Shown here one piece after another: positions 5,490 to 22,932 of a DNA stretch of 23,546 nucleotides. The DNA is from a virus. Position numbers and translations under genes: made by a program. Position 1 is the stretch's first letter. Every line of letters begins with the position of its first letter. The notes beneath the pieces are model-generated. The model saw nothing but the letters and a program-made list of their open reading frames with translations, was not told the origin of the DNA and did no database searches. Location: positions 1-23,546 of the IMG/VR virus record IMGVR_UViG_3300031825_000392; one strand, given 5' to 3'.

Positions 5490-5788
5490 CACGCCACCCC
5501 CTTGATCTTTTCGGCGAACTTGAAGCCGTAGACGGTACCCGCCCAGGCCAGCGACATCCCCGCGGCGGTAATGTCGAACCGACCGAACAGCAGCGGCTGG
5601 AGGATCATGGTCCAGGTGACGGTCGCATTGGTGATCCAGTCGAGCGTCGGGCGGGCCAGCCGCACAAAGGCCTGGTACCAGGCCTGCTCCCGAATCCAGT
5701 GGTCCGGCATGTTGATGGCGCTCCCGGCCGCGGGCGTCGCCGCTGCGCCTGTCATCCGGTCGGGATCGCCGGGCATGGTCTCGCTCAT
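5489..5788 (-). CDS. Putative phage holin
   Basis: This 99-residue protein has an N-terminal polar segment ending in PDHWIREQAWYQAFVRLARP. Hydrophobic stretches around WITNATVTWTMILQPLLFG and AAGMSLAWAGTVYGF follow, then a charged tail (KFAEKIKGVA). Size, two membrane segments and location between endolysin and spanins fit a holin that permeabilises the inner membrane for endolysin release. The ATG overlaps the endolysin stop (ATGA), so the two are translationally coupled. I do not see enough to place it in a specific holin family. Confidence 0.7.
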   Translation of the reverse strand: MSETMPGDPDRMTGAAATPAAGSAINMPDHWIREQAWYQAFVRLARPTLDWITNATVTWTMILQPLLFGRFDITAAGMSLAWAGTVYGFKFAEKIKGVA

Positions 5789-6327
5789 GCCACCCTCGCG
5801 AGCCAGCCGTACAGAAAGGCTTCATTGGCGGCGCGGCCCTCCGCCAGCGAGACATAGCGTTCCCCCTGCAGCGCGTTGAGCAGCGCCAGCAAGCGCCGCT
5901 CGCCTTCCGCCCCGCGCCTGCCCAGAAAGGCCTTCAGCGCCGCGGCCGTGGTCGCGCCGGCTAGGCCGTCCACCAGCAGGTCGGGATAGTCGCGCGCGCC
6001 GTTGTTGAGCGCGTTGAGCGATCGCTGCAGGAAGGTTGCGGCGATCTTCGGCCCCATATTGACGCCGGTATCGACCAGTTCGGCCGCGACGGGCAGCGAG
6101 ATCGCGGCGATCCGGTCGAAGCCTGGCGCCACGACATATTGGCGCCGATAGACCTCGAAGGCGAAGCTGCGCGGCATGTCGCGCATTGCGCCGGCATAGC
6201 CCTGTGCCCGGGCGGTTGCGATCGTGATCCCGAAATTGGTCTCGCCGCCCGCGTCCCACGCATCGTTCGCATAGCTGCCTTCATTGGCGAGCACCCGCTC
6301 GATGATCGTGTCGATCGCCGTCATCAC
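5785..6327 (-). CDS. Endolysin, glycoside hydrolase family 108 (N-acetylmuramidase-like)
   Basis: This 180-residue protein matches the GH108 layout. The catalytic Glu region is VLANEGSYANDAWDAGGETNFGIT (Glu16 is the likely acid/base), followed by a RDMPRSFAFEVYRRQYVVAPGFDRI helical region and a VDTGVNMGP segment. A C-terminal peptidoglycan-binding-like domain spans about residues 95-180. There is no signal peptide, so export would depend on the holin. The product would cleave the glycan backbone of peptidoglycan at lysis. The gene starts ATGATG at 6327; the first ATG overlaps the stop of the preceding small gene and the TGA overlaps the holin ATG. Length is normal for the family. Confidence 0.9.
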   Translation of the reverse strand: MMTAIDTIIERVLANEGSYANDAWDAGGETNFGITIATARAQGYAGAMRDMPRSFAFEVYRRQYVVAPGFDRIAAISLPVAAELVDTGVNMGPKIAATFLQRSLNALNNGARDYPDLLVDGLAGATTAAALKAFLGRRGAEGERRLLALLNALQGERYVSLAEGRAANEAFLYGWLARVA

Positions 6328-6648: not shown

Positions 6649-9333
6649 TCACAGCATTACGCTCGCGACAGCCGCCCGCATATATGGGGCGACGATAGCG
6701 TGAATTGCGGTGGTCCAATGCAATCCGTCCGAGGTATTAGCGACGCCGCCAGGAGCATCGGTGGCGAAGGTCTGGCTGGAGATCACCGGACTTTGGTAAA
6801 TATCGGAGTACGCGTCAAAATTGCCGAGTGCCAATTCTCCCAGGAGCATTGCGCGAAAAGTGTCGGCCTGGCCGTTCGTGTACGATCCAGCTGTTCGATA
6901 GGTTGGAGGCTGAACCACGATCTTATAACCGGCCGCACGCACGGCCGCCCAATAAGTGCGAAGATCCGCCTGCGCCGGAAGCCCGTTTGCGCCGATCATC
7001 ATCGTCAGGATGGGGCGATAACCCATGGCCACAGCCGCGCGGCCGATCTTGGTTACTAGCGGCAGCCGTGATGTCATCGTCGCCAGCGTCGACCCGGACA
7101 CAGCCATCAAGCGCCACCACGGCCTAAGGCTCAATGCAGCTTGCACCAAATGGGCATAGCCGTATTCGCCACCCAGCCCGCCCGCGACGGTTATGCTATC
7201 GCCTTCTGGGACAACGACATTTCGGACCGGGAATACATCTCCCATCAGAAGATGACGATCGCGGATATTCTTGACGGCGAGCGCCATGGCATCGTCGGAA
7301 AGAGCTGTCGGATAGATCGCAGGGACACCAACCCTGCCGTTGAGGGGCTGACTATCCAGATAGCCGCCACCGCCATAGTTAAGATAGGGCACGGTGAATG
7401 AAGTAGCGGCCGTCGAATCTTCAGCGAGTTGGATGCCATCAAGATGGAGACTGCGGCCGTTCGACCCAAAGCGGACCGCACCTATCACCCATCCTTTGCC
7501 CGCGACCGAGCCGAGAACGCCGGGATTTAGGCCACGCGCCCTCAGGTCAAGCATACCCCCCTGCGTTCCGATCACCACGGCATTTGTATTGTACCCGGTC
7601 ACTCCCCCTAGAAGCGGCGTAAACAACACTCCCGATGCGGCCGCGTTCGCAACGTCTTCTCGGAAGGCCACCATGAAGGTTCCTTCGGAAAACGTCACCC
7701 CGTTGTCGTCACGGGTAGAAAGGAGGATGCGACCGGCGAACGGAGCAACTATCGAATTGCCCGAACCGCGCGTTATCGTGTCGGCACGTGTGATGCTCGT
7801 TCGGCGGACCGCGCAGCCTATTCGGGACGGCTCGGCAGCCGGAATGTTCTCGCCATCAAGGCTAATCTGCACATCCTCACGAAAGATGACATCGAGAGGG
7901 AAAGCGTCGGCGCTATTCCAGATATTCACCTGATTATAGGCTGCCGTCATGCGCGAGAAGGTTACGGTCGTCCAAGCGCTTTCCGTGATTGTATAGGCGT
8001 CCATAAAGGTGGGATAGAGTCCGGCAGTGACGTTCTGATTTCCAGCGCCGGGCGCGCTCTTGATAAGGAACTTTCCCTTGATCAGGCCTGGTACAAGAGA
8101 TGTCGATAACGAGAATAATTGATTGTGCGCCGACATCTGGATCCGGTGAACTCCAAGGCCGCTATCAGTCGTATAGTTCTTCGTGAGAATCGCACCGTTT
8201 GAACTTACGTACATCTCCGTGCCGCCCGGATGTGCGTTGTGGGTCACCGTGGCGCTCATGCTGGCTGGGACGTATCGATCATCCGTGATAAAGGCCATCA
8301 CGGGATCGAGCGAAACAAGCGCACCAGCAGGCAGCGGCGTTACGGCGCCGGGCGCAGAGAGCAGCGCAATCTTCTGCCCCAGCGCTATCCCTGCCTGCGT
8401 GAGCGCCGGCTGTTGGAGCGTGAGCGCCCCGTTGGTCCGTAGATAGGTGTCGATCGCCAACCCATTGGCGAGGGGCACGGTCGAATATTGCCCGTCCGTC
8501 GTTCCGGCCAGCGCCAGGGCTGCGCTTGCATAACGGTGCGTCAGATCGCCGGTCGCTGCGATCTGCGCCACCGCCACCGGAATTTGGTCGATGACGGCAA
8601 GATCGGCGGCAACGGCATCGATGTTCGCCAGATGGCCCGCGACTGCCGCGATATTGGCGCTGCTCCCAGCCACGGCACTGACGCTGGCAGAGATGCCGGC
8701 CACCGTCGTGATGCTCCCCGCGATGCCGGAGACCGATGGAACAACCGACGAGATTCCTGCGACAGCAGATATGTTGGCTGAGATCGGTGCAAGGGTAGTG
8801 ACTGCCGCCGAAACATGCGCGACTGTGGAGACGTCCGTTATAGCTCCAGCAACGCTCGCAATATTGGCAATGCCCCCCGCGACTGTCGCGATATCGCTCC
8901 CCTCGAGCAGGCTGTTCCCAACGGCCACGATCGAGGGCACGTCCGCCAGGGCGATCTCCGGCCCCTCCTCGCCCAGCGGCACCTTCAGCGCGCGGCGTGC
9001 CTTGTGCTCCGTCGCGAGCGCGCGCAGCGTCGCGCGGCGGTTGATGGTGTTGATCGTCGAGAGGTTGTAGGCGCCCTGGTCGGCGAATTCGCTGGTCTGC
9101 AGATAATCCGGCCTGAGCAGGATCACGATCCGCTCGCCCGCCGCGCGCGGCGCATCGAAGGTCACGGTGCCGCCCGTCTCGGCGAGCGACACGCTGTAGC
9201 CCGCCGTCACCGGCGTGCCGTCGATCTCGACGGCAACGTCCGTCGCCGACACGACCGAAAAGGTGAAGGGGAACGCGCTCCTGCTCTCATGGATTTCATA
9301 CGCGTCGAAGACATTGGGACTGATCGTGGCCAC
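6649..9333 (-). CDS. Tail fibre with T7-type N-terminus, decapeptide repeats and C-terminal SGNH esterase-like domain
   Basis: This 894-residue receptor-binding protein starts at GTG 9333, with AAAGGAGG 8 bases upstream. Residues 1-130 resemble the T7 gp17 adaptor domain (RPDYLQTSEFADQGAYNLSTIN...). Residues 148-258 are about eleven copies of a 10-residue repeat, VAGxxAxIxx. Residues ~290-700 appear beta-rich, with a LamG-like segment near 590-690. Residues 705-894 look like an SGNH hydrolase: GDS (Ser713), Gly747 in VSGS, GAN (Asn783) and DGLH (Asp869/His872). Such domains de-acylate surface glycans, so the fibre may trim O-acyl groups from its receptor. GC drops after the repeats, indicating exchange of the host-range part. 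An upstream bipartite promoter-like motif lies at 9361-9389. Confidence 0.88.
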   Translation of the reverse strand: MATISPNVFDAYEIHESRSAFPFTFSVVSATDVAVEIDGTPVTAGYSVSLAETGGTVTFDAPRAAGERIVILLRPDYLQTSEFADQGAYNLSTINTINRRATLRALATEHKARRALKVPLGEEGPEIALADVPSIVAVGNSLLEGSDIATVAGGIANIASVAGAITDVSTVAHVSAAVTTLAPISANISAVAGISSVVPSVSGIAGSITTVAGISASVSAVAGSSANIAAVAGHLANIDAVAADLAVIDQIPVAVAQIAATGDLTHRYASAALALAGTTDGQYSTVPLANGLAIDTYLRTNGALTLQQPALTQAGIALGQKIALLSAPGAVTPLPAGALVSLDPVMAFITDDRYVPASMSATVTHNAHPGGTEMYVSSNGAILTKNYTTDSGLGVHRIQMSAHNQLFSLSTSLVPGLIKGKFLIKSAPGAGNQNVTAGLYPTFMDAYTITESAWTTVTFSRMTAAYNQVNIWNSADAFPLDVIFREDVQISLDGENIPAAEPSRIGCAVRRTSITRADTITRGSGNSIVAPFAGRILLSTRDDNGVTFSEGTFMVAFREDVANAAASGVLFTPLLGGVTGYNTNAVVIGTQGGMLDLRARGLNPGVLGSVAGKGWVIGAVRFGSNGRSLHLDGIQLAEDSTAATSFTVPYLNYGGGGYLDSQPLNGRVGVPAIYPTALSDDAMALAVKNIRDRHLLMGDVFPVRNVVVPEGDSITVAGGLGGEYGYAHLVQAALSLRPWWRLMAVSGSTLATMTSRLPLVTKIGRAAVAMGYRPILTMMIGANGLPAQADLRTYWAAVRAAGYKIVVQPPTYRTAGSYTNGQADTFRAMLLGELALGNFDAYSDIYQSPVISSQTFATDAPGGVANTSDGLHWTTAIHAIVAPYMRAAVASVML
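8560..8892 (-). repeat. Tandem 30-bp/10-residue repeats in tail fibre
   Basis: About eleven in-frame units are visible, for example VAGGIANIAS, VAGAITDVST, VAGISASVSA, VAGSSANIAA and VAGHLANIDA, with an exact 10-residue period. The DNA copies have diverged at third positions, so selection has kept the protein period. A fibrous trimeric shaft is the likely structure. Confidence 0.85.
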
Positions 9334-9360
9334 GCGGCGCCTCCTTTGATGAGGACGGCC

Positions 9361-9389
9361 TAGGGCTGCGCGGCATCATGTTGAATCGA
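9361..9389 (-). promoter_or_regulatory. Bipartite promoter-like element upstream of tail fibre
   Basis: On the minus strand TCGATTCAA (9389-9381), a 15-base spacer and CCCTA (9365-9361) lie 28 bases before the GTG start and upstream of the AAAGGAGG site. The same element with the same spacing occurs at two other phage gene starts. It contains GATTC, a GANTC site. Confidence 0.55.
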
Positions 9390-9719
9390 TGCGGCGCCGA
9401 ATCGTGCGGGGCGGGCCCGCGGGGAGGACCGGTGACCGTGGCGGCCGGGCCGGTCGCGGTTCGGCGCTATGCGATGGTGCCGATCGGCATTCGATGGCCA
9501 TACGGGCGGAATGGCGGCGTTCCCCGATGATCTCGGAAACAGCGTCGGCCGATATGCCGACATGCGGCGCATCCCGCCACGCCATGGCCGGCAGGCCGGC
9601 TGCTTCATCGTCGCCAGTCGCCGGGTTGGGACGGCCGTGGGAAACACGATATCGCCGCTGCCCCGGTGCCGAACGAGCGCCAACGCCGTCCGGAACCTCG
9701 CGTGGGTTCGCTCGGGTGC
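9390..9719. other. Gap without a convincing gene between tail fibre and ejection protein
   Basis: No reading frame here has a credible start, ribosome binding site or recognisable product. It contains a 10-bp GC palindrome (GCGGGCCCGC, 9411-9420) and a small GC hairpin near 9583-9600. It may be the remains of a gene lost when the C-terminus of the ejection protein was replaced. In a tightly packed late operon a gap this long is unusual. Confidence 0.4.
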
Positions 9720-11780
9720 CTATCGACGTCGCGTGGGCAGCGCGACCCGGTCACCGACGGGCGCGGGCGTCTTTCTCCAGAACCACGTCCATTTCCCGGT
9801 ATCGGGATCATAGCGTATCGCCAGGAGCGAGGATGGCGTTTCGCGGCCATTTTCAAATCGCGCATAGCCCGAGACGTCTCCGCGTCCGAACCGGTCGGTG
9901 TTTACCGAGAGCTCATATTTGCCATTGGCATCCGAAGGTTCCGTCACATATGCCTTGGCGGCGTAGACCACCCCCTTGGTCAGCCTTGATAACTCCCGCG
10001 CCTGGGTGCCGTTGGCCGCAAAGCAACTGGAAACGATGACGGGCGTCCCGTCCCTGTATTGGAGGCGCTTGAGATCCCAGTAGATCGCTTTGGGTCTCAA
10101 ATACTGCCCGTCTGCTCCGTGCGCTTTGTCGGTGACGGTGCCGTCCGGCACGGACCCATGCGAATAGATAATCATTGCGCCATGCGGACTCTGCATCTTG
10201 TTCAGGGCGACGATGGCATCCGCATCCTGGGCCTCATTGAGGTAGTTCAGCCATGTCGCCGTCCGAGGCCGGCTGGCGCGGCGGCGGGGTGGAGACTGCC
10301 CCGCCCCCCGAACTGCGCTGTTGTCGTCCGATGCGAAGTGACTGCTATCCTGCTGCGTGGCGATCGGCTGGACGGCTTCGCGGTCGGCCCGGTTATAGGA
10401 GATCGGCTCGGGCCTCGGCCCGGCGGCCCCGACCACGTCTCCGATCCGCTGCTGCGTCACCGTCTCGGCCCCCGGCGGATAGCCGGCGATGCCCCGCTGC
10501 CGCCGGACGAGCGCGTCATATTCCGCCGGCGCCACCAGGTCCTTCGCCAGCCGCAAATCCTGCCGGGCAAATTCGGCCGGTTGATAGGTCGCCATCAGGT
10601 TCAGCTTCAGCGCGGCCGCGCCGTGCGGGGGAACCGGCCGTGGATCGAGGTTGTTCGCCGCGCGCCGCATCAACGCGTCGGTCGTCGCCGCGTCGAGGTC
10701 CCGGCGCGTCGCGGCGGGGAGCTGGGTGATCGAGGTGAAGTCGGGCCCGAGCCGGTCGGTCTCGGCCAGCGCGGTCTCCTTCGCGGCCGTCTCGGCCTGT
10801 GCGCGCCGGCGGTCCTCGGCGAGGAAGCGCTCGGCCAGGTCGTTGCGCGCATAGGCCTTGCGCGTCTCGTTCCACGGCCCCGCCTCGATCGCTTCTCGCC
10901 AGGCGGCCCGCTCTTCCGGGCTGGTCGGCGCGGGGCTGCCGTCCGTCGGGCGGGGCGGGGCAAGGCCGTCGACATCCGCCGCCGCCTGGGCGCGGGCGAG
11001 CGGTTCGAACAGGCCCCGCTCGATCATGGCCTGGTCGGGCGCGGTCATCTCGTCCCGGTGCGCCAGCAGATAATGCGCCGCGGCGACCGGGTCCCGCATC
11101 ACCAGCCCGTCGGCCACGCGCCGGTGGATGCCCGAGCGATAGGCGCCGATCGCGGCCTGCGTCACCGCCGGATCCTCGCCGCGCAGCGCTGCCTGGCTCG
11201 CGAGCGCCTCGGCCCCGGTCGCGACATATTTGTCGAACAGGTCCGGATCGTCGGCATGGGCCACCGCATCGTCGGCCGAATTGGCCTGCACCCCCGCGCT
11301 CTGGCGATCCTGCTCGATGGCGTTCTGCCGGTCCGCCTGAAGCTGCAGCCGGCCCATGTCGATCGCGAGGCGCGAACCGACCGACTGGTCGTAGATCTCG
11401 CGCTGGCGATCGGTCGTCAGCGCGGCGCGGCCCTGTTCATAGGCATCGGTCAGCGCCTTCCGCGTCGGCTCGAGCGCCGCGAGCGCCGCGAACCCCTCCA
11501 GTTGCCCGAAGTGCGTGGTTGCCTCGCGCGCCACGCCGGCATAGCGATTCCACACCAGCTTGGCGGCAGCGTCGTCATGCAGCGTCTGCGCCTGTTGCTG
11601 CTCCCGGGCCTGCGCCCGCTGCTCGACCATGCCGGCGATCTTGCCGCCGGCTTCAGCGACCGCCTGCAGCCCGTGGTCCAGTGCCTGCAGGCCGGTGCCG
11701 GAAAGATCCGGGGTTACCAGCTTCGCGTCGGTGGCGCTGGCGAGGGGGGCGCTGTTGCGCTCGGTCGGGACGATCGGCAT
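9720..11780 (-). CDS. Internal virion (ejection) protein with C-terminal caspase-like domain
   Basis: This 686-residue protein takes the position of T7 gp15/gp16. Residues ~20-480 are long charged helices rich in Ala, Gln, Glu and Arg (for example MVEQRAQAREQQQAQTLHDD), as in ejection proteins that pass through the cell envelope with the DNA. A low-complexity basic linker (SPPRRRASRPR, about 495-505) leads to a different C-terminal domain (510-686) with lower GC. It has MIIYSHGS (His541-Gly542) and VIVSSCFAANGT (Cys586), spaced like the His-Gly/Cys dyad of clan CD (caspase/CHAT) peptidases, then GVVYAAKAYVTEP. No lytic transglycosylase domain is seen. The ATG follows a 20-codon reading frame (TGA-G-ATG). 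The ejection role is inferred from position; the peptidase role rests on motifs only. Confidence 0.72.
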   Translation of the reverse strand: MPIVPTERNSAPLASATDAKLVTPDLSGTGLQALDHGLQAVAEAGGKIAGMVEQRAQAREQQQAQTLHDDAAAKLVWNRYAGVAREATTHFGQLEGFAALAALEPTRKALTDAYEQGRAALTTDRQREIYDQSVGSRLAIDMGRLQLQADRQNAIEQDRQSAGVQANSADDAVAHADDPDLFDKYVATGAEALASQAALRGEDPAVTQAAIGAYRSGIHRRVADGLVMRDPVAAAHYLLAHRDEMTAPDQAMIERGLFEPLARAQAAADVDGLAPPRPTDGSPAPTSPEERAAWREAIEAGPWNETRKAYARNDLAERFLAEDRRRAQAETAAKETALAETDRLGPDFTSITQLPAATRRDLDAATTDALMRRAANNLDPRPVPPHGAAALKLNLMATYQPAEFARQDLRLAKDLVAPAEYDALVRRQRGIAGYPPGAETVTQQRIGDVVGAAGPRPEPISYNRADREAVQPIATQQDSSHFASDDNSAVRGAGQSPPRRRASRPRTATWLNYLNEAQDADAIVALNKMQSPHGAMIIYSHGSVPDGTVTDKAHGADGQYLRPKAIYWDLKRLQYRDGTPVIVSSCFAANGTQARELSRLTKGVVYAAKAYVTEPSDANGKYELSVNTDRFGRGDVSGYARFENGRETPSSLLAIRYDPDTGKWTWFWRKTPAPVGDRVALPTRRR

Positions 11781-11901: not shown

Positions 11902-12074
11902 CCCGCGCGGCGGGCGAGTTATCACCGAATCGGATATAATTATCGCTTTGGCTGTTGCCCGGGCGATCTTCTGACATAGTTGCGGCAGCGAATCGAAGTG
12001 GCGCGGGCAGGGGAGTGCCGGCCGCGCCGCCGATCGCAAGCGCGGGCCGGGCCCGCCGGAAGGGGAGCGGCCGG

Positions 12075-13700
12075 ATGCGACAAACGACCCTGTCTGTGGC
12101 GCTTGAGGTCAAGCCGGAAAGCCAGGAGCTGCTCGCCGCCCTGATCGACCGGCTGCATGACAATGGCGCCGCGCCCGCGCAGGGCGCGCGCGATTTCGGC
12201 TGGTTCATGCAGGGCGTGCCGTCAGTGCATTTCCTGTCGATGAACGTCTTCCCCGGCGCGGACTATGATCCGCTGTTCGTGCTGGAGGCCAATTTCGATG
12301 GCGCGCCGGGCGTGTTCTGGGGCCAGCTCGAGGCAGCGATCGGCGGCGATCTGCGCGCCATGCTGCGCTGCTGCAAGCGGCCGCTGAACCAGGATGGCCC
12401 GCTGTTCGATGCCGTCACCGCAGCCGGCGCGCGCGCGCCGGTCGCCCCGTATCTGGAGCGGCGGGCGCTGCGCCCGAGCGTGTTCCACCATGGCAATCGC
12501 GGCATGACGCGTGATCGCATCCTCGCCGAGCGCGACCTGTTCGGCGCGATCCGCACCGAAATCGCCACGGCCAACGGCCCGGGCCCCAGCCCCTATCGGG
12601 CAGCGGCCGATGCGCGCCAAATCCACGATCGGCTGCGCGCGGCGCTGCTCCCGGCCTTTCCCTGGCTCGCCCTGAAGCCGCCGTCGCGCATCCCGTTCCT
12701 GCAGCGCATGGGCGATATCGCGCGCCTGCTCGCCTTCGTCTTCGCGGTCGTGGTCGCGCTGTCGCTCCCCGGCCTGATCCTGGCGCCGATCATGCCGACG
12801 GGCCGTTATTTCATCCTGATGGCGATCCTGCTGCTGCTGGTCGGCGTGCCGCTCTACCGCATCCGCGAGCCGCTTCCCGGCACCGGCGTCGCCGGCCAGA
12901 CCAATTTGTTCAGCGTGCTGCTGAAGAACCTCCTGCCGGTCGCGCTGTTCGTCGGCCTCTATTTCGCCGTGGTCGCGCCGCTCGCCACCGTCGTCACGAC
13001 GGCACTCACCGGCGCCTCGGTCCCGGTCGCCTGGGCCGCCGCGGCGCGCACGATCCTGCTCGGCCTGGCCAGCATTCCGTTCACGGTCACCGGCATCCTC
13101 GCCTGGCTGCGCTGGCTCGAACGCCGCGATTCGTCGCAGGATGCGCCGCCGGTGGACGAGGAAGTGATGCGCCAGATGGCGCAGCGCGAGGACTGGATCC
13201 CGCAGAACCATATGGGCTCGGTCGTGCTGATCAAGCCGGGGGTGCTGCGCACCATCATCATCCGTGCCGGCCATCTCGGGCTCGGCCTGTTCCTGCGGGT
13301 CAAGGCGACGGACGGGTATCTCGGCAGCATGCGCACCGTGCATTTCGCGCACTGGGCCTTCGTCAACAATGGCAGCCGCCTGATGTTCTTCAGCAATTTC
13401 GATCAGAGCTGGGAAAGCTATCTCGATGATTTCATCGAAAAGGCGCATGCCGGGCTCACGCTCGCCTGGGGCTGCGGCGTCGGCTTTCCGGCGACCCGCT
13501 TCCTGATCCAGGACGGCGCCAGCCATGGCCGCAAGTTCAAGGCCTGGGCGCGCCACTCCATGGCGATCAGCCGCTTCTGGTACAGCGCCTATGCCAACCT
13601 CACCGTCGACCAGGTCGAGCGCAACAACCGCATCGCCAACGGGCTGCGCCGGAAATCGCTCACGCAGAAGGAGGCCGCCGCGTGGATCAACGACCTGTGA
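12075..13700 (+). CDS. Membrane protein of a DyP peroxidase/P450 operon
   Basis: This is a 541-residue protein. Residues 1-~215 are soluble, with SMNVFPGADYDPLFVLEANFDG-type sequence that suggests a ferredoxin-like alpha/beta domain. Residues ~215-345 hold about four to five hydrophobic segments (for example LLAFVFAVVVALSLPGLIL and YFILMAILLLLVGVPL). The C-terminal ~200 residues are soluble, with HFAHWAFVNNGSRLMFFSNFDQSWESYLDDFI. I have the impression that this protein type recurs next to heme peroxidase genes, but I know no assigned function. ATG 12075 has AAGGGGAG 7 bases upstream, which decides the start. It overlaps the peroxidase gene by 19 bases. A role as membrane partner of the downstream heme enzymes is inferred. 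Confidence 0.75.
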   Translation: MRQTTLSVALEVKPESQELLAALIDRLHDNGAAPAQGARDFGWFMQGVPSVHFLSMNVFPGADYDPLFVLEANFDGAPGVFWGQLEAAIGGDLRAMLRCCKRPLNQDGPLFDAVTAAGARAPVAPYLERRALRPSVFHHGNRGMTRDRILAERDLFGAIRTEIATANGPGPSPYRAAADARQIHDRLRAALLPAFPWLALKPPSRIPFLQRMGDIARLLAFVFAVVVALSLPGLILAPIMPTGRYFILMAILLLLVGVPLYRIREPLPGTGVAGQTNLFSVLLKNLLPVALFVGLYFAVVAPLATVVTTALTGASVPVAWAAAARTILLGLASIPFTVTGILAWLRWLERRDSSQDAPPVDEEVMRQMAQREDWIPQNHMGSVVLIKPGVLRTIIIRAGHLGLGLFLRVKATDGYLGSMRTVHFAHWAFVNNGSRLMFFSNFDQSWESYLDDFIEKAHAGLTLAWGCGVGFPATRFLIQDGASHGRKFKAWARHSMAISRFWYSAYANLTVDQVERNNRIANGLRRKSLTQKEAAAWINDL

Positions 13701-15286
13701 GCGGGGCACCGCAGGGTAGCCCGCCGAGCTGGCGGCTGAAGGCGCCGCACGACGCGATGACGCAGGGGCTTGCGGTCAGCGGCTTCGGCGCGCTCCCGAC
13801 CGGCCGCGCGCTGTTCCTCGAATTCGCGTGGAAGGGGAAGGGCGGCGGCGCCTGGCTCCAGGCACTGCACGCGATCGCGCCCGTCACCGATGCCGATGGG
13901 CGCGATGCGCGGGCGACGGCGCTGTCTTTCGCCTTTGCCGGTCTCGAGAAAATGGGCCTGCCCAAGGCAGCGCTCGATTCCTTCGCTGCGCCGTACCGCG
14001 AGGGCATGTTCCAGGAAGACCGGCTCCGCCGCCTCGGTGATCGCCGCAACGGGCAGTGGCTCGGCACCGTCGTCGAGGGCGGCCCGAAATGGAGCGCCAA
14101 CACCAGGCAGCGCGGCGCGCTGGAAAGCGTCGAGGAAGGCCAGTCCCGCGCCCGGACGTCGACCGGCCACCGCGAGGAGCAGATCGTCACGCCGGTCACC
14201 GTCCACGCGCTGCTCCTGCTCTATGACAAGGACGAGGCGAGCGCCGAAGCCTGGGCGGAGCAGGTTGAGGCGGCACTCGCGCCCCATGCGGTGCAGGTCG
14301 TCCATCGCCTGCCGCTCGATCTCCGGCCGGATGAGAAGGGTGTCGCCCGCGAGCATTTCGGCTTCGCCGACGGCATTTCGCAACCCATGCCCTATGACGA
14401 CGAAGCCGTCGTCCTCAGCGACGGCGCCCCGGCGGCCAGGGATCCGTGGAACGGCATCCCGCTCGGCGAGATCCTGTTCGGCCATCTCAACGGGCATCAT
14501 GAAAGCGCCCCGGGGCCGATCGTGCCCGATGACGACAAGGCGCAGGCCGCCGGCCTCCCGCCGCATCCGCTCGCCGAGGGTTTTCGCGATTTCGGTCTCG
14601 ATGGCAGCTATATGGTCGTGCGCGAGCTGAAACAGGATGTCGTCGCCTTCTGGCAATCGATGCGTGACAATGCCGCGCGGATCCGTGCGCGCGATCCCGA
14701 TCACTCGGCCCATGTCACCACCACCTGGCTCGCCGAGCGCGTGGTCGGGCGCAGTACCAAGGGGCACCTGCTCTGTCCGTCGGGCTATCTCCCGCCCAAT
14801 GCCTATGGCCAGCCGGAGAATGATTTCGGTTTCTACGATCGCGATCTCCACGGCATCGGCTGCCCGGTCGGCTCGCATGTCCGCCGCGCCAACCCGCGCG
14901 ATGGCCTCGCGCCCACGCCGGACCAGAAGCAGACGCTGCTCGACGCGGCGAACAACCATCGCATCCTGCGCCGCGGCCGCAAATATGGCGCGACGATCAG
15001 CGTGCCGCCCAAGGAGGACGGGGTCGATCGCGGCCTGCTCTTCATCTGCCTCAACACCGATATCGCGCGTCAGTTCGAATTCGTGCAGCAGACCTGGCTG
15101 CTCAACCCGAACTTCGCGACGCTGTTCGACGAGACCGATCCGCTGGTCGGGCCGCAGGGCACGATGACGATCCACGAACAGCCGCTCCGCCGGATCGTCG
15201 ATGTGGAAACCTTCGTCCGCATGGCCGGCGGCGACTATTTCTTCCTGCCGAGCATGCCGGCGCTCAGCTATCTGGCATCGCTATGA
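13682..15286 (+). CDS. DyP-type heme peroxidase
   Basis: This 534-residue dye-decolourising-type peroxidase contains the family motif GFADGISQP (227-235, GxxDG with catalytic Asp230). It also has GCPVGSHVRRANPRD (393-407) with the likely proximal heme ligand His399, and NNHRILRRGRKYG and FICLNTDIARQFEFVQQTWLLNP near the end. There is no Tat or Sec signal, so it is probably cytoplasmic. DyP peroxidases oxidise substrates with hydrogen peroxide; the substrate here is unknown. It starts at GTG 13682, with AAGGAGG inside the upstream gene, and ends with a 4-base ATGA overlap with the P450 gene. The three genes therefore form a coupled unit. Confidence 0.9.
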   Translation: MDQRPVSGAPQGSPPSWRLKAPHDAMTQGLAVSGFGALPTGRALFLEFAWKGKGGGAWLQALHAIAPVTDADGRDARATALSFAFAGLEKMGLPKAALDSFAAPYREGMFQEDRLRRLGDRRNGQWLGTVVEGGPKWSANTRQRGALESVEEGQSRARTSTGHREEQIVTPVTVHALLLLYDKDEASAEAWAEQVEAALAPHAVQVVHRLPLDLRPDEKGVAREHFGFADGISQPMPYDDEAVVLSDGAPAARDPWNGIPLGEILFGHLNGHHESAPGPIVPDDDKAQAAGLPPHPLAEGFRDFGLDGSYMVVRELKQDVVAFWQSMRDNAARIRARDPDHSAHVTTTWLAERVVGRSTKGHLLCPSGYLPPNAYGQPENDFGFYDRDLHGIGCPVGSHVRRANPRDGLAPTPDQKQTLLDAANNHRILRRGRKYGATISVPPKEDGVDRGLLFICLNTDIARQFEFVQQTWLLNPNFATLFDETDPLVGPQGTMTIHEQPLRRIVDVETFVRMAGGDYFFLPSMPALSYLASL

Positions 15287-16515
15287 GCGTCCTCTCCTCC
15301 ACCGAGGTGCTCCGCCCCGGGCCGAAGGGCTTCAAGCGGCTGGTGATGCAGGCAGTGATGGGCGCGATGCCCTTCGGCTTCCGGCTGCTGCGCGGGCTGA
15401 AGCCGATCCCGCGCTTCGGCAAGACCTATGTCGTCACCCGCTACGACGATGTGCGCGAGGTGTTCGCGACTGATCCGGCCTTCGGCGTGCCCTACAAGGA
15501 CAAGCTCGACGTCATCATGGGCGGCGAGCCCTTCTTCCTCGGCATGGGTGACACGGCGCAATATCGCGCCGACACCGGGGCGATGCGCAAGGTCGTCCGG
15601 CCCGACGACCTGCCGGCGCTCGCGGCGAAAGTCGAGGCGCAGGCCGAGGCGATCGTCGCCGGCGCGGGCGGGCGGATCGAGGTGGTCGATGCGCTGGTGC
15701 GCCGCGTCACCTTCGATTTCCTCGCCGAATATTTCGGCGTTCCCGCGCCACCGGGCGGCGACCTGCGCGTGTGGGGCACGCGCCTCTTCGAATATCAGTT
15801 CGTCGCGAGCGACGCGCCGCTGCTGGGCGAGGTCGCCCAGATCGCCCCGGCGCTGCGCGATCATATCCAGCACGAGATCGAGCGACGCCGTGCGAAGCCC
15901 GGCAAGGCGGATGATGTGCTCGCGCGCTGTCTCGCGCTCCAGAAGGCGGGCGAGCCGGGTTTCAGCGATGCGCAGATCCGCACCGCGCTGATGGGCTTCA
16001 TCGTCGGCGGGCCGCCCCAGCCGCCGATGGTCGTGCCGCAGGCGATGGAGCAATTGCTCCGGCGGCCCGATGCCCTGCGCGGCGCCCAGGCCGCGGCCCG
16101 CGCAGGCGACGACGCGCTGCTCGCCGGCTATGTCCGCGAGGCGATGCGCTTCGATCCGCTTGCTCCCGGCCTGCCGCGCATCGTGCTGAAGGACTGGACG
16201 GTGGCGCAGGGCGCGAAGCGCCAGCGCACTATCCCCGCCGGCGCGACCGTGCTCGCTGCCTTCGCCTCGGCGATGCGCGATGGTCGCCGCGTACCGGATC
16301 CCGAGACCTTCGATCCGCGCCGCCTGCCGCACGAATATATCCATTTCGGCCATGGCCTGCACCAATGCTTCGGCATCCACATCAACAACGCCACGCTGCA
16401 TCTGATGCTGAAGCCGCTGCTCAGGCGCGACAATCTGCGCCGCGCGCCCGGCACTGCCGGACGGCTGCGCAAGAATGGCGCCTTCGCTGAATCGCTGACG
16501 GTCGAATTCGACTGA
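15283..16515 (+). CDS. Cytochrome P450 lacking the usual I-helix acid-alcohol pair
   Basis: This 410-residue soluble P450 has the heme-binding loop HFGHGLHQCFGIH with the thiolate ligand Cys362, the K-helix ExxR (Glu286/Arg289 in YVREAMRF), and a normal-looking C-terminus. The I-helix region reads MGFIVGGPPQPPMVVPQ (237-253) in place of the usual AGxDT/S motif, so the acid-alcohol pair used for O2 activation is missing. P450s without it often use peroxides or act as isomerases or dehydratases on hydroperoxides. Adjacent to a peroxidase gene, a peroxide-dependent reaction is a plausible inference. It is translationally coupled to the DyP gene. No ferredoxin or reductase gene is nearby, consistent with a non-classical electron source. 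Confidence 0.9.
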   Translation: MSVLSSTEVLRPGPKGFKRLVMQAVMGAMPFGFRLLRGLKPIPRFGKTYVVTRYDDVREVFATDPAFGVPYKDKLDVIMGGEPFFLGMGDTAQYRADTGAMRKVVRPDDLPALAAKVEAQAEAIVAGAGGRIEVVDALVRRVTFDFLAEYFGVPAPPGGDLRVWGTRLFEYQFVASDAPLLGEVAQIAPALRDHIQHEIERRRAKPGKADDVLARCLALQKAGEPGFSDAQIRTALMGFIVGGPPQPPMVVPQAMEQLLRRPDALRGAQAAARAGDDALLAGYVREAMRFDPLAPGLPRIVLKDWTVAQGAKRQRTIPAGATVLAAFASAMRDGRRVPDPETFDPRRLPHEYIHFGHGLHQCFGIHINNATLHLMLKPLLRRDNLRRAPGTAGRLRKNGAFAESLTVEFD

Positions 16516-16562
16516 CGTGCATGCCGGGGTGATCGGGCGTGCCCGCTGGGCTATCAACGCGC

Positions 16563-17492
16563 ATGGCTTCCCTTGAATCGATTGTTGCCGAGATCGCGGC
16601 CGAGATGGCCGAGGCGCCCCGTCGCGGCGCGGTGGCGGATTATATCCCGGTGCTCGGCGAGATCTCGCCCGACAAGTTCGGCATGGCGGTGATCGAGGCG
16701 GACGGCAGCTGCCATCTCGCCGGCGATGCGGACGAACCCTTTTCGATCCAGAGCATCTCCAAGGTGTTCAGCCTCACCCTGGCGCTGGGTGCGATCGGCG
16801 ACAAGCTCTGGGAGCGTGTGGGGCGCGAACCCTCGGGCAGTGCGTTCAATTCGATCGTCCAGCTCGAAACCGAATCCGGCATTCCGCGCAATCCCTTCAT
16901 CAATGCCGGGGCGATCGTGGTGGCGGACGTGCTGCTCGGCGGACACGAACCGATCGAGGCGATCGGCGAGATCCTGCGCTTCGTCCGTGCGCTGGCCGAT
17001 GACGACAGCATCTTCATCGACGAACGCGTCGCCCAGGCCGAGCAGCAGACCGGCTTCCGCAACGTCGCGCTGGCGAATTACATGCGCGCCTTCGGCAATA
17101 TCCATCACCCGGCCGAGCGTACCCTGGGCGTCTATTTCCACCAATGCGCGCTCGCGCTCAGTTGCCGTCAGCTCGCGCTTGCCGGCCGCTATCTGATGAC
17201 CGGCGGGATCAATCCGGCGACCGGCCATTCGATCGTCTCCACCCGCCGGGCGCGCCGGATCAACGCGCTGATGATGATGTGCGGCCATTATGATGGCTCC
17301 GGCGAATTCGCCTTCCGGGTCGGGCTCCCCGGCAAGTCGGGCGTCGGCGGCGGCATCCTGGCGATCGCGCCCGGCCGCGCCTCGATCGCGGTCTGGTCGC
17401 CGGGGCTCAATGCACGCGGCACCTCGCAGCTCGGCGCCCTGGCGCTGGAGCGGCTCGTTCACCGCACTGGTTGGTCGGTGTTCGAGGCATGA
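16563..17492 (+). CDS. glsA: Glutaminase (GlsA family)
   Basis: This 309-residue protein hydrolyses glutamine to glutamate and ammonia. It belongs to the serine beta-lactamase-fold glutaminases and has the usual length of the bacterial GlsA family (~308). The catalytic S-x-x-K motif is SISK (Ser64/Lys67) in [10 protein letters not shown]. Other family blocks are DYIPVLGEI near the N-terminus, [29 protein letters not shown] and the C-terminal [14 protein letters not shown] 16563 fits the family length better than GTG 16539. It follows the P450 gene by 47 bases on the same strand, so it may be the last gene of the operon. It is an ordinary metabolic gene and its presence inside a phage late region is odd. 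Confidence 0.93.
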
Positions 17493-17535: not shown

Positions 17536-18108
17536 TTACGCCCAATTTGCGGTTGGCCCTTCATAGCGAAACGGCGCTTGCAGTTTGGTTTTTGGGGTCT
17601 TTTCCAGTCCGCTCCCCTTCATCCCCATCGCCTGCGACGCACCGCCCAGCGCAGTCGAAAGCCCGCCGAAAATGCCCTGCGCCAGCGCGGCGCTGCCCTT
17701 GGCGCGGTTCGCCGCCGCTTCGGAGCGATAGTTGAACGCGTTGATCTCGAATCCCTTGGTCCGCTCGTTGCCGGCCTTGTAGATCTGGCCGATATCCTCC
17801 GCACCGATCATCGCGGTGTCCTTCTGGATCGCGGCCGGCGATCCGAAATTCAGGTCCACGCCGTTCGCGGCCATCGCCGCGGTCTGCGCGCCCTTGGTTT
17901 GGGCGAGATCGCGATAGCGGCGCTGCGCCTCCAGGTTGGTGTTGTCGATGCTGTCGCGCGCCTGTTCATTGGCGAGCCGCGCATTCTGGTCGGCGATGCC
18001 GGCCTGGTAATTTGCCTGCTGCTGCGCGCCGATTCCGCCCAGGACCGCGCCGGTCGCGGAAATGGCGGTCGAGGCGGCGGCAAGGACGACGGCGACGGGT
18101 GCGCACAT
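17536..18108 (-). CDS. Internal virion protein, T7 gp14-like
   Basis: This is a 190-residue protein. An N-terminal hydrophobic segment (VAVVLAAASTAISATGAVLGGIGA) is followed by long helices rich in Gln, Ala, Asn and Arg (QQQANYQAGIADQNARLANEQARDSIDNTN...). A NGVDLNFGSPAAIQKDTAMIGAEDI segment and Gly/Ala-rich C-terminal sequence follow. This matches the T7 gp14 virion core type, which is ejected and helps form the DNA channel across the envelope. ATG 18108 overlaps the stop of the gp13-like gene (TGATG) and fixes the start. It is the last backbone gene before the plus-strand cargo block. Confidence 0.83.
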   Translation of the reverse strand: MCAPVAVVLAAASTAISATGAVLGGIGAQQQANYQAGIADQNARLANEQARDSIDNTNLEAQRRYRDLAQTKGAQTAAMAANGVDLNFGSPAAIQKDTAMIGAEDIGQIYKAGNERTKGFEINAFNYRSEAAANRAKGSAALAQGIFGGLSTALGGASQAMGMKGSGLEKTPKTKLQAPFRYEGPTANWA

Positions 18109-18560
18109 CAGCCGCGCTCCAGCATGAAGGAATGAAACGGGGTTCCGGCGATCATGCGTACCTCCTGGTCGATGGTGAAGCCGAGCCACCGCAGGAAGCG
18201 GATCGCGCGGTCATTGTCCGCAGACACTAGATTCTCCAGCCGCGCAGTTGAATCGAGCATCGCGGCAAGCAGCGGCGGCCCGCCGCGCAGCAGCGCGCGC
18301 GGATGCCGGTAGATCGCGTCGGTCCCCAGCATCCAGGGCGATCCCTCGCCGCACAGCGCGTTGGTCACTACCAGTCCGATCATCGCCTCGGCGCGCCCGT
18401 CGACCATGGCCGTCAGGCAGATCGAGGAGCCGCGCAGCCCTGCGCGCAGCGCCTGTCTCGGCGCATGGCCCATCGCCGCGCATTCGGTCATATCGGCCGC
18501 GCGCATCCGTGCCGCGATCGGCCCGACATGCACGGCGCGCGCCGGGACCAGCGCGATCAC
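18108..18560 (-). CDS. T7 gp13-like virion-assembly protein (GNAT-like fold)
   Basis: This 150-residue product resembles the gp13/DUF2833 family of T7-like phages: AMVDGRAEAMIGLVV, GSPWMLGTDAIYRHPRALLRG and LENLVSADNDRAIRFLRWLGFTID. The pattern is that of an acetyltransferase fold with the AxNxxAIRFLxxLGF C-terminal element. In T7, gp13 is needed for correct assembly of the internal core. GTG 18560, directly after the stop of the upstream gene, is preferred because the conserved sequence begins at once. GTG 18599 would add 13 residues and overlap the upstream gene by 35 bases. Confidence 0.78.
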   Translation of the reverse strand: MIALVPARAVHVGPIAARMRAADMTECAAMGHAPRQALRAGLRGSSICLTAMVDGRAEAMIGLVVTNALCGEGSPWMLGTDAIYRHPRALLRGGPPLLAAMLDSTARLENLVSADNDRAIRFLRWLGFTIDQEVRMIAGTPFHSFMLERG

Positions 18561-18564
18561 CGGC

Positions 18565-20352
18565 CTATTCGGAGATGGACGGGTCGAGATGGATCGCACT
18601 CACCGTCATCGGCAGCGGATCGTCCGATCGCACCACCATGCGCGCGCCGCCATTGATGTCCGGGCGCAGATAGGTCTCGTACAGCCCGGTCATCAGCGCC
18701 GGCGGCTGGCCCGGCAGCTCGCTGCTGCGCGATCGCAGCGGCTCCAGCGTCGCGTCGGTCGGGCCGGCCTTCACGCCGCGGCTGTCGATCAGCCGGATCA
18801 CTGCCTTGGCCTGGGTCTGGGGCTTCGCGATCGTCCAGCCCGCCTGGCCCTGGAAGGCGAGCGGCAGCGTCTCGATCGTCGCGCTGTAGGGGAGGCCAAC
18901 CGTCACCTTGTGCGCGGGCTCGGGCAGCGTGACCATGCCGTTCGCCACCACCAGCCCGGCAACCACCCCGCCATCCGCCAGCGCCGAAACGGCCCGCCCC
19001 TCGAGATGCTGGAGATTGCGCAATACCGCCTGCGGCGTCTCGAACTGGAAGGTCACTGCGCTGTCGAGGAAGCAGCTGTCGGCCACATCGTCCCACCGCG
19101 CCGCAGCCATCCGCTCGATCAGCAATTTGCCGCCGCGCCGCACGGTCAGGTACACCCGGTCCTCCGCTCCTTCCGAGATGACGCACAGGCTCTCGACCAG
19201 GCCGTCGGTCTCGCACAGCGTCCAGCCCCATACCTGCTGTTCCTGTTCCCAGGTGAAGCACAGCAATTTGCCGTCGTTGCGCACCGCCCAGATCACCGAG
19301 CGCGGCTCCTGCGCATAGGCCCAGGCCTTGATGTCGAAGCCGCGGAACAGGTGCGGCGAAAAGATCGTCACGTCGTTCGAGTTGATCGAATCGCTCTGGA
19401 ATTCATAGCCGAGCGTGCGCACGCCATTGCCGACGCTGGTCTGGTAGAAGCACACGCTGTCGATCACGAGCGGGGAGAGGCGGGAGGAGCCCCGCCCGTT
19501 CTGCCGTCGCACCACGAAGTCGGTCGCGCTGATATAGCCGGCCTGCCCGCCCTCGATCTTGAAGATCGCGTCGGAAGTGAGCGCCAGCAGGTCGTTCATC
19601 GACACGAGCTGGTTCACTGCGTTCACCCGCCCGGCGACCAGTGCGAAGCTCAGCGCGTCGGAGGCCTTGAGCGGCCGCGAGATATCCATGTTCTCGAAAC
19701 TGCCCGACCGCGAGCCATAGATCGCGTTGGGTCGCCTGGCCGTCCGACCCCAGAGCAGTCGCTGCTCGAAAAAGGTCACCGTCGAGGGGTGATCGTCCGC
19801 GCCGCTGAACGGATCCTCGCCGATCGGCGGCCCGTCCGAATAGTCCGGACCGATATTGTCGTCGACGAACGACAGGCTCTCGGTCGCGCCGATATAGCCA
19901 TATTCCTGCGTGTTGTCGGCCTTGTACACGCGGTAGCGCGTCGCGCCTGCCGCGGCCGACCAGTTCAGCTGGTTGCTGTTGCGCTTCAGTGTCAGGTCGT
20001 TGGGGTCGCCGGCATTGTCCACCGGGGCCGAGGCGCGGCTCTCCGCGCCCGACACGTCGTTCACCGCCGTCACCACATATTTCTGCGTCTGCGGGAAATA
20101 GGCGTTGCCGCTGTTCGCCGAATCGGTGTTCGGGTTGTTCGAGAGCAGGCTGAGCCCGGTCGGCGCGGCGATCGTCGGCGCGAAGGCGATGGTCGAGAAG
20201 GTCCAGTCGCTATGCCCCGCCCGCACCAGCTTTGCCGGCGCGTGGTTGAGATGCGCGAAATACATGGTGTCGGCCGATTGCTCATAGTCGAGCTCGGCCA
20301 GCTCGGCGCCATTGAACGGCGATCCGACGCGATAGAGGCGGGCGACGCTCAT
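18565..20352 (-). CDS. Tail tubular protein B (T7 gp12-like), C-terminal part
   Basis: This 595-residue protein begins MSVARLYRVGSPFNGAELAELDYEQSADTMYFAH, sequence that in intact gp12-like tail tube proteins lies after about residue 170. The rest (FEQRLLWGRTARRPNAIYGSRSGSFENMD, NDLLALTSDAIFKIEGG, YQTSVGNGVRTLGYEF, WEQEQQVWGWT and so on) is typical of the phage nozzle protein. The N-terminal part is encoded separately at 21275-22276, with mntP between. ATG 20352 is preferred over ATG 20418, because the upstream start overlaps a promoter-like element and adds 22 residues unlike the family. The TAG stop is followed directly by the gp13-like gene. A split nozzle gene is unusual and the virion may be defective unless both parts assemble. 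Confidence 0.8.
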   Translation of the reverse strand: MSVARLYRVGSPFNGAELAELDYEQSADTMYFAHLNHAPAKLVRAGHSDWTFSTIAFAPTIAAPTGLSLLSNNPNTDSANSGNAYFPQTQKYVVTAVNDVSGAESRASAPVDNAGDPNDLTLKRNSNQLNWSAAAGATRYRVYKADNTQEYGYIGATESLSFVDDNIGPDYSDGPPIGEDPFSGADDHPSTVTFFEQRLLWGRTARRPNAIYGSRSGSFENMDISRPLKASDALSFALVAGRVNAVNQLVSMNDLLALTSDAIFKIEGGQAGYISATDFVVRRQNGRGSSRLSPLVIDSVCFYQTSVGNGVRTLGYEFQSDSINSNDVTIFSPHLFRGFDIKAWAYAQEPRSVIWAVRNDGKLLCFTWEQEQQVWGWTLCETDGLVESLCVISEGAEDRVYLTVRRGGKLLIERMAAARWDDVADSCFLDSAVTFQFETPQAVLRNLQHLEGRAVSALADGGVVAGLVVANGMVTLPEPAHKVTVGLPYSATIETLPLAFQGQAGWTIAKPQTQAKAVIRLIDSRGVKAGPTDATLEPLRSRSSELPGQPPALMTGLYETYLRPDINGGARMVVRSDDPLPMTVSAIHLDPSISE

Positions 20353-20412
20353 GCGATGGCCCCGGTGGCTGGCGCCGTCGGGCGCGGATGGAATGCGGTC
20401 ATTCGCGGACAA

Positions 20413-20441
20413 TGGCATCGGCCGGGTCGCGATTGAATCGA
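20413..20441 (-). promoter_or_regulatory. Partial bipartite promoter-like element before tail tube B C-terminal part
   Basis: On the minus strand TCGATTCAA (20441-20433) is identical to the other copies. The second half, 15 bases on, reads TGCCA and only partly matches CCCTA. It would restart phage transcription after the mntP insertion. Confidence 0.4.
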
Positions 20442-21274: not shown

Positions 21275-22276
21275 TCACGCCAGCGACCCGTCCACATCCG
21301 GGTCGTAGGCCCGCTTGTTGTGGCTGAGCACGCCTGCCGAGACATAGCTGTGCGCCTCCGCCACGGCGATCTTCGCGACCCAGGCCGATCCGTCCGGCGT
21401 CCCGATCGCGTCCATCCGCACCCAGGTGCCGTCGATCCGGAACCGGTGCTCCGCCGTCGCGCGGATCGTCGTGCCCTCGATCGTCGCGCGCAGCACCGGC
21501 ATCCAGGCAAGCTCGATCGCCTCGACCGGATAGTCTCCCCATTCGAGGCTGTCCTCATGCTGCGTCCGCACCAGCGTGCCGACCCTGAGCAGCCGCGCCG
21601 CGATCTCGCTGCCGTCGGCCAGCAGGATCGGCGTGTCGTCGGCGACGCAGAAGCCTCCGCCGCCGCCACCGCCGCCGATAGTGGGCGGTGGTGGCGGGGG
21701 CGGGGGCGGTGGCACCGGCGGCGGGGGTGGCGGGGGCGGCGGCGGGCCGGCGCGGGTGGCCCCGTCATGATCGGCGGTGAAGGCGCCGAACCCGGTCGAA
21801 TCCACGTCAACCGTGAAATGATGGTCGTCCGGCACCGCGATCACCCGCGCGATCCGGCCGTTCAGCTCGATCGTCCCGTCGATTCCGGAGAAATAGACCT
21901 GATCGCCCACCGCATAGCCATGATAGGCCGCCGCGATCCCCGTCGTCGCGCCGCGGGTGATCGCGTCGATCGTCAGCTTGTCCTCGATCACCATCCCGCC
22001 TAGCGCGGCGGGGCGCATATAGCCCTGGCCCATTTCGAGCGCATAGGTCTGGCTCAGCGAGAACTGGAAGGGCATCAGCCGCACCGGCGCGCTGTCGTCC
22101 TGCACCTCGGCGACGAGCCGCGTGCCGGGCCGCTTGGTCACCCCGCCATATTTGAGGATGATCACGTTGCGCGCCCGCTTCAGGCCGGTGGCATAGGCGG
22201 CGACATCGACTCGGCTGATCAGGTCCTCGGCCAGCTCGCCCTTGGAGAAATTGGGCTGTCCCGTGCGCAACGCCAT
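21275..22276 (-). CDS. Tail tubular protein B N-terminal part fused to a Hint (intein-like) domain
   Basis: This is a 333-residue protein. Residues 1-167 match the start of T7 gp12-like tail tube proteins (MALRTGQPNFSKGELAEDLI, RNVIILKYGGVTKRPGTR, FQFSLSQTYALEMGQGYMR, VDSTGFGAFT). The family sequence then stops. A linker of two Pro10 runs and Gly8 (178-208) leads to a Hint domain (210-320). Block A is CVADDTPILLADG with Cys210, block B is TAEHRFRI with His277, and the C-terminus is VLSHN with His319-Asn320, followed by Lys321 and 12 more residues. The domain is 111 residues with no endonuclease insert. Lys after Asn means canonical splicing is not expected; cleavage or ligation through Cys210 is possible. 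ATG 22276 overlaps the tail tube A stop (TGATG). Confidence 0.85.
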   Translation of the reverse strand: MALRTGQPNFSKGELAEDLISRVDVAAYATGLKRARNVIILKYGGVTKRPGTRLVAEVQDDSAPVRLMPFQFSLSQTYALEMGQGYMRPAALGGMVIEDKLTIDAITRGATTGIAAAYHGYAVGDQVYFSGIDGTIELNGRIARVIAVPDDHHFTVDVDSTGFGAFTADHDGATRAGPPPPPPPPPPVPPPPPPPPPPTIGGGGGGGGFCVADDTPILLADGSEIAARLLRVGTLVRTQHEDSLEWGDYPVEAIELAWMPVLRATIEGTTIRATAEHRFRIDGTWVRMDAIGTPDGSAWVAKIAVAEAHSYVSAGVLSHNKRAYDPDVDGSLA

Positions 22277-22932
22277 CAGCCGGCGCCCCCCATGCATGCC
22301 GTGCCCGCGCCGCGCGCGACCGCCACCTCGTCCGGCGCGCTCGTCGCGCGGTTGGGCTGGCGGTTGATATCGTCGGCGATCGCGCGCTGCGCCGCCACTT
22401 CGGCCTGCTGGAGCAACTGCCCCTTGGCCTCGCGGCTGTCGCGCAGCGGCACCGCCAGCCGCGCGGCGAGCGCATAGGCCAGCGCGTCGATGAACAGCCC
22501 CGGCATCGCTGCCTCCGCCACGTCGCGCGCGCTATATTCCAGGATGGCGTTCGCGACCTGGCTGAACAGCACGCCGTTCTCGATGATGAAGGGCTGGCCG
22601 CTGATCGGCGTCGCCGGGCCGGAGGCGGGGCTGCAGACGGGGGCGCCGGCCCAGCCGCCGGCGGGCGGCACCAGCCGCGCCGCGGTCGCCAGGTCGGCGG
22701 GTAGGGCATAGGCATGCGCCCATTCGCTGGCGCGCGGGTTGGCGGCGAGCTCGGCGAGCGGGGCGATCCGCGCGGCGAAGCTCCAGTCGAACCGCTCGAG
22801 CAGCAGTTTCAGGCAATGCGGATAATAGCGCCGGCACTCGGCGGCTTCGGTCGTCGCCTCGTCGATATCGACGATGGCGGGTGCCCGAAGCTCGCCCAGG
22901 GCAAGGTTGCAGACGGTGATGCTGATAGCCAT
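22276..22932 (-). CDS. Tail tubular protein A (T7 gp11-like)
   Basis: This 218-residue protein has the gp11 gatekeeper/adaptor pattern: MAISITVCNLALGELRAPAIVDIDEATTEA at the N-terminus, then CRRYYPHCLKLLLERFDWSFAARIAPLAEL and WAHAYALPADLATAARLVPP. The C-terminal third (LFIDALAYALAARLAVPLRDSREAKGQLLQQAEVAAQRAIADD) is helical. gp11 forms a ring under the portal that joins the tail nozzle. It starts at ATG 22932 with no clear Shine-Dalgarno, only 10 bases from the promoter-like element. It is coupled to the tail tube B N-terminal gene. Confidence 0.87.
   Translation of the reverse strand: MAISITVCNLALGELRAPAIVDIDEATTEAAECRRYYPHCLKLLLERFDWSFAARIAPLAELAANPRASEWAHAYALPADLATAARLVPPAGGWAGAPVCSPASGPATPISGQPFIIENGVLFSQVANAILEYSARDVAEAAMPGLFIDALAYALAARLAVPLRDSREAKGQLLQQAEVAAQRAIADDINRQPNRATSAPDEVAVARGAGTACMGGAG

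Follow-up and report, generated by a model that had tools for sequence, protein, structure and literature searches.

A predicted caspase-like domain on a podovirus-type ejection protein, a probable exchangeable effector of a polymorphic effector-immunity system

The DNA analysed here, a 23,546-base IMG/VR record that we call the window, encodes on its minus strand an ejection-type virion protein of 686 amino acids (9720..11780) that ends in a predicted caspase-like domain. We regard it as moderately probable that this putative cysteine protease is the swappable C-terminal effector of a polymorphic effector-immunity system carried on a podovirus-type ejection protein. Comparison of related loci revealed that the body of the protein belongs by homology to a virion protein family, that its C-terminal end is exchanged among relatives and that modules matching those of other toxin systems occupy the same slot. 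Small proteins predicted to be exported or membrane-bound, and specific to the module, usually follow the modules, and there are also putative orphan immunity genes and one orphan cassette. In gene content, such an ejection-protein locus with modules, partners and orphans is built like a polymorphic toxin locus; the window is the exception, as it is without a recognisable partner. Because the C-terminal end is swapped for cell-damaging domains, usually together with an antidote-like gene, the particle probably delivers weapons, either in addition to making way for DNA or in place of it. We found no report of polymorphic toxins on podoviral ejection proteins in the open-licence literature searched. 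Exchangeable toxins are already documented for MuF capsid proteins, and it is the podoviral ejection protein as carrier that would be new. If this is true, ejection proteins would add to the ways in which polymorphic toxins reach their target, in this case the periplasm, with the caspase-like protease as one warhead, and the toxin pool would be tied to phage genes that appear domesticated.

The ejection-type protein

Residues 37-271 of the protein match PHROG 10475 (E 1.1e-15), a 700-aa virion-associated family that is labelled endolysin because of the central wall enzyme in its members. Alignments revealed that the body, residues 1-460 (10401..11780, minus strand), is common to relatives with other C-terminal modules. 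The gene adjoins a gp14-like gene and its relatives carry a wall-lytic domain, as is characteristic of podoviral ejection (internal virion) proteins. In relatives, either SLT (PF01464, in L029 and L030) or M23 (PF01551, in L031 and L032) lies in a slot that corresponds to about residues 271-281 of the window's protein (10938..10970, minus strand). The slot is empty in the window, and a Pfam search found neither SLT nor M23 in its ejection protein, in agreement with the initial annotation, which had noted that the usual lytic transglycosylase is not seen there. A MuF domain is likewise absent from this protein, which matched no Pfam family; the carrier is PHROG 10475.

A basic linker, PPRRRASRPRTA (10254..10295, minus strand), had also been pointed out and is present in the translation. 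GC content is 0.613 in the linker and C-terminal domain versus 0.73 in the body, and GC3 is 0.72 versus 0.89. This lower GC had been read as the mark of a recent fusion. The difference itself stands, but a recent fusion is unsupported, because at least four diverged contigs carry this fusion and, in all relatives examined, modules and neighbour genes are low in GC.

The C-terminal domain and its predicted fold

The C-terminal domain covers residues ~506-686 (9723..10265, minus strand). Translation confirmed that IIYSHGS and VIVSSCFAANGT are 45 residues apart and that a hydrophobic strand precedes each. The first contains His541 (codon 10158..10160, minus strand), predicted to be catalytic, and the second Cys586 (codon 10023..10025, minus strand), the predicted nucleophile. 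Homologous domains exist on other ejection proteins; they were found on three other contigs, L083 (50% identity), L065 (42%) and L075 (46%), the last being the C-terminal domain of the second ejection-like gene on its contig. His and Cys are invariant in the alignment of the four members, and S-H-G, S-C-F-x-A-N and the domain end are all kept. These contigs were fetched by a shared tail gene, and their ejection genes were then read; since the His/Cys motif is invariant in domains found without a motif search, it is more than chance. We also compared the window with G001, a near-identical locus in an uncultured bacterium assembly (CAISGR010000024.1). In the domain, 6 of 561 nucleotides differ, all at the same codon position and synonymous, and 187 of 187 amino acids are identical. 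By this comparison, the domain is under purifying selection.

An AlphaFold model of the domain built from the four sequences reached a pLDDT of 71.5 and a pTM of 0.74, whereas a single sequence gave a pLDDT of 34.8. In the four-sequence model, strands 37-40 and 82-84 precede H42 and C87, so that a core strand is followed by the His and the next by the Cys. A Foldseek search of the PDB with the model placed clan CD peptidases first, namely 3ho6 (C80 protease domain; probability 0.75, best E 0.04), 8tl0 (SAVED-CHAT; 0.66) and 9cip (clostripain, C11; 0.25), none below E 0.001. Both the model topology and these best matches favour the earlier proposal of a caspase-like (clan CD) domain on a phage ejection protein. 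Because the Foldseek E-values are modest, we call a caspase-like (clan CD-type) fold likely, not proven. Among viral models, the best match was a siphovirus minor capsid protein (probability 1.00, E 1.1e-3), and clostripain- and C14-type proteins were among the best 11 matches. A region of the match A0A8S5P2H5 (minor capsid protein of siphovirus ctKUC4) is modelled like the domain, which hints that the same module may occur on another virion protein.

Sequence searches placed the domain in no described family. With the domain alone, neither tblastn nor pattern search found relatives in phages, plasmids, viral_contigs or the 401 family and 385 class genomes. L005, a PQQ dehydrogenase-like protein, and L038-L053 were rejected as relatives, being weak matches without the motif, as were Kelch and MdbA sequence matches in the PDB, which cover the C-terminal strands and not the catalytic part. 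A profile link to Peptidase_C14 (PF00656), raised at the outset, did not hold up: Pfam gave no match in the window's protein, and the profile-profile comparison (in which the wrong strand was used for 2 of 14 C14 rows) gave E 0.38, no better than controls. The one Pfam signal for the domain was DUF4347 (PF14252) in a single member, at E=0.0097 and below the gathering score; the window's member had none, and DUF4347 members were sought among relatives and not found.

Exchangeable modules on ejection proteins

Relatives of the body in other genomes have two places for enzymes, one central and one C-terminal. The central slot holds SLT or M23 in some relatives; the window, L026 and L027 have nothing in it. 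The C-terminal slot holds the caspase-like domain, Amidase_2 (L075a, 4.5e-17), Phage_lysozyme2 (L028, 2.6e-22), a lysozyme-like domain (PHROG 90, L054), an eCIS_core metallopeptidase (L027, 4.1e-9) or domains without assignment, and the ejection protein of L026, at 482 aa, has no C-terminal module. A second carrier gene in the same elements ends in T6SS_VgrG3-like_C (2.7e-36 in L075; 3.6e-49 in G445) or M23; that of L061 has a DUF4329 match of 0.0016, below the cut-off. Thus, as in polymorphic toxins, a conserved N-terminal carrier bears unrelated C-terminal domains, and some of these (eCIS_core, T6SS_VgrG3-like_C) are common to other toxin systems. The GC content of modules and partners, 0.45-0.65, is lower than that of the bodies, 0.65-0.74, in every locus measured.

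The L075 contig has a full ejection gene with the amidase, its partner, a truncated second body with the caspase module, and the partner of that module, in this order. The truncated copy (9453-11213 of L075) matches the body before it over 794 nt, with 93% identity, its N-terminal half is missing and the caspase module is at its end. By analogy, it resembles an orphan cassette of polymorphic toxins.

Further genes of this kind were observed. T6SS VgrG3-like ends are present on second carrier genes at 3535-4869 of L075 and 10022-11671 of L126, and an exported 259-aa protein (4914-5693) follows the former. In L061, an ejection protein with a C-terminal domain of no assigned family (8692-10998) is followed by a lipoprotein gene (11132-11647).

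Immunity-like partner genes

Directly downstream of most module-bearing proteins is a small protein with a signal peptide, a lipobox or an N-terminal membrane segment. When such immunity-like genes within 700 nt were counted by one automatic rule, they were present in 9 of 11 loci with a module versus 2 of 18 without (Fisher p=2.5e-4, a guide only, because the loci are related). BLASTP groups the partners of the caspase modules in L083, L065 and L075b into one family (4e-10 and 2.5e-5) with an invariant Cys and an N-terminal hydrophobic segment. The L083 member is encoded at 12150-12599 of its contig. L083, L065 and L075 supply named putative toxin-partner pairs. Amidase-type partners recur in L025 and muramidase-type partners in L067 and L068. 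Some partners are orphans: L025 has partners of both the amidase and the caspase type but neither module, in L096 there is an additional caspase-type partner, and L095 has an orphan of L025's first gene. Orphan immunity genes together with orphan cassettes are typical of polymorphic toxin loci, and the link to polymorphic toxins, suggested in the initial annotation, is much strengthened by the exchangeable modules, the partner genes and the orphans. Since the partners of the caspase module are envelope-anchored, action in the periplasm is implied.

Comparison with relatives places the exported or membrane-anchored gene at 9334..9719 (minus strand) of the window, where there is none. No recognisable gene of the caspase-type partner family was found in the window or in the whole G001 assembly. 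A 192-aa protein with a signal-like N-terminus is encoded at 22968-23546 (minus strand), adjoining the tail tubular gene, and is a possible candidate partner of the window's module.

Window neighbourhood and the scattered element in relatives

The virion and lysis genes of the window lie on the minus strand. They encode an endolysin with GH108 and peptidoglycan-binding domains (5785..6327; PF05838, PF09374), a tail fibre-type protein (6649..9333; PHROG 28871) which, from the L002 sequence, is variable past its N-terminus between the window and G001, a gp14-like internal virion protein (17536..18189; PHROG 418, E 1e-33), a small protein (18108..18599) that tblastn finds conserved between the tail and gp14-like genes in nearly all relatives, the main part of the tail protein (18565..20418; PHROG 376, E 1.8e-143), its N-terminal part with a Hint-like domain recognised by motif (21275..22297; PHROG 376 positions 2-101) and a tail tubular A-like protein (22276..22932; PHROG 394, E 6e-38). 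The tail protein is split over two ORFs that join at profile position ~102, and the first ends in a proline/glycine-rich stretch and then the Hint-like domain ending SHN-K; the motif is also present in L069, L071, L075, L076, L078, L080 and L031. Between these ORFs, on the opposite strand, is an MntP-type manganese efflux pump gene (20680-21252, plus strand; PF02659, E 1.5e-47). Two acyltransferase-type genes, at 1437-2645 (minus strand) and 3811-4941 (plus strand; PF01757, 2.4e-27), lie beside the lysis cassette; such genes can change surface sugars and hence phage receptors. Between the gp14-like and ejection genes, Pfam identified four host-type genes on the plus strand (11955..17492), encoding an unknown 581-aa protein, a Dyp-type peroxidase, a P450 and a glutaminase, and this block has the same position in L065, L074 and L083.

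In the 5.06-Mb contig G432 and the 5.20-Mb contig G445, terL and the clusters for tail-ejection and portal-scaffold-capsid genes follow phage order on a single strand (L116-L119, L124-L128). They are 20-60 kb apart amid ordinary genes, many of which are common to both contigs and mostly in the same order. Between G432 and G445, the head, tail and ejection genes have dN/dS values of 0.09-0.33, with capsid and portal at the lower end and the ejection body at the upper end. Phage structural genes dispersed over the chromosome and, judging from synteny and dN/dS, passed on vertically are the layout of a gene transfer agent, and we regard the scattered set as a candidate domesticated, GTA-like element. 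Between the window and L065, dS is 0.70-0.76 for tail genes and 0.61-0.71 for the adjoining glutaminase, P450 and Dyp genes; the values are alike, and therefore these genes aged together. In the same comparison the ejection body is 47% identical and the tail protein 82%. Contiguous phages of the same family have a giant (2,000-2,250 aa) gene after the ejection gene, which was not seen in window-type loci. A capsid-less, tailocin-like particle, considered because no head genes lie beside the tail cluster, was rejected when portal and capsid were found 30-45 kb away, and a terminase-less, DNA-free particle when terL was found in G432, G445, G001 and G482.

A wider proposal, which we put forward tentatively and hold to be on the unlikely side, is that a GTA-like particle derived from a podovirus has been domesticated and is inherited vertically, with the window as its tail-and-ejection cluster. 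The ejection proteins of this particle would carry a pool of periplasm-acting polymorphic toxins, so that material would be transferred to kin holding the partner and non-kin would be killed.

Proposed function and alternative explanations

In the effector-immunity system that we favour, the ejection protein would be held in the particle and ejected into the envelope of the attacked cell. There the protease would cut envelope proteins and harm cells without the partner. The partner, with an anchor in the inner membrane and a domain in the periplasm, would bind and block the protease in the producer and in kin cells. The window's copy may have lost, or never had, a recognisable partner, so that protection would come from elsewhere or not be needed in this strain. 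That neither the window nor the whole G001 assembly has a recognisable partner gene speaks against an effector-immunity system. Furthermore, DNA entry could be the sole task of the several modules that are wall hydrolases, the Foldseek matches in the PDB are weak and the predicted structure derives from four sequences.

The main alternative, which we consider somewhat unlikely, is that the modules are infection enzymes that aid envelope passage, and that partners made by resident cells block the same module of incoming relatives, by analogy with P22 SieA. It would give the same anatomy, envelope-directed partners included, and wall hydrolases make up half of the modules, in place of the SLT or M23 that was lost. 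SieA is itself an inner-membrane protein, and mutations that escape it map to the C-terminal parts of ejection proteins (PMC10883804). However, protease modules would be poor enzymes for wall penetration, T6SS and eCIS systems have domains in common with the modules, polymorphic toxins typically show orphan cassettes and orphan partners in strings, and the elements in relatives look vertically inherited rather than infecting.

The initial annotation had suggested maturation of the channel or cutting of a defence or envelope protein; channel maturation and the cutting of a defence protein are not supported as the favoured role. Maturation of the virion, in which the protease would cut the body of its own protein or further ejection proteins once the particle is assembled or during ejection, is improbable. 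Large toxins are often processed by caspase-like domains, according to the available text of PMC3482391, and the giant second ejection gene of full phages is missing from the window locus; the domain is, however, the last one of its protein rather than upstream of a cargo, unrelated enzymes take the place of this one in relatives and module-specific neighbour genes follow it. Cleavage of a host defence protein by a protease injected into the cytoplasm, also suggested in the initial annotation, is very improbable. Ejection proteins do travel with the DNA, but the anchoring of the caspase module's partners points to the periplasm and no link to defence genes was seen. The least probable explanation is a decaying prophage without present function, for which non-adjacent head genes, the missing partner and host genes between tail and ejection genes could be cited, but six synonymous and zero amino-acid changes in the domain between strains, the dN/dS of 0.09-0.33 between G432 and G445 for head, tail and ejection genes, and intact reading frames argue against it.

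Comparison with known systems

The proposed effector-immunity system shares features with several known systems. As in eCIS cargo with DUF4157/eCIS_core (PMC8213781), eCIS_core is present in L027, but there is no contractile system, and the domain is C-terminal on an ejection protein. FpGTA, in the available text of PMC12946183, is a podovirus-like gene transfer agent; podovirus-type structural operons scattered in a bacterial chromosome and a lysis cassette are common to both. It differs in its bacteria and genes, and that text mentions no toxin modules for it.

Closer to the module itself are the Tox-Caspase domains, described in the available text of Zhang and others (PMC3482391) as caspase-like domains that end polymorphic toxins at the C-terminus and as likely toxins. 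The domain studied here is likewise C-terminal in a polymorphic protein and combines a predicted caspase-like fold with the His and Cys residues. Unlike Tox-Caspase, it has no significant sequence match to a described family, and an ejection carrier is not among the delivery routes listed in that text. P22 SieA exclusion also involves a membrane protein directed at ejection proteins, with sensitivity set by their C-terminal ends (PMC10883804), whereas the partners here adjoin the ejection gene, are module-specific and also occur in orphan strings.

MuF virion proteins of temperate phages are polymorphic toxins with immunity (Jamet and others, Alexei and others; PMC5576092; Bxa, PMC11699363). 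As in MuF toxins, a phage virion protein bears an exchangeable C-terminal toxin domain and is followed by a small immunity-like gene. Unlike in MuF toxins, the carrier is a podoviral ejection-type protein, the partners are envelope-directed, one module is caspase-like by prediction, and the elements are scattered in the host genome.
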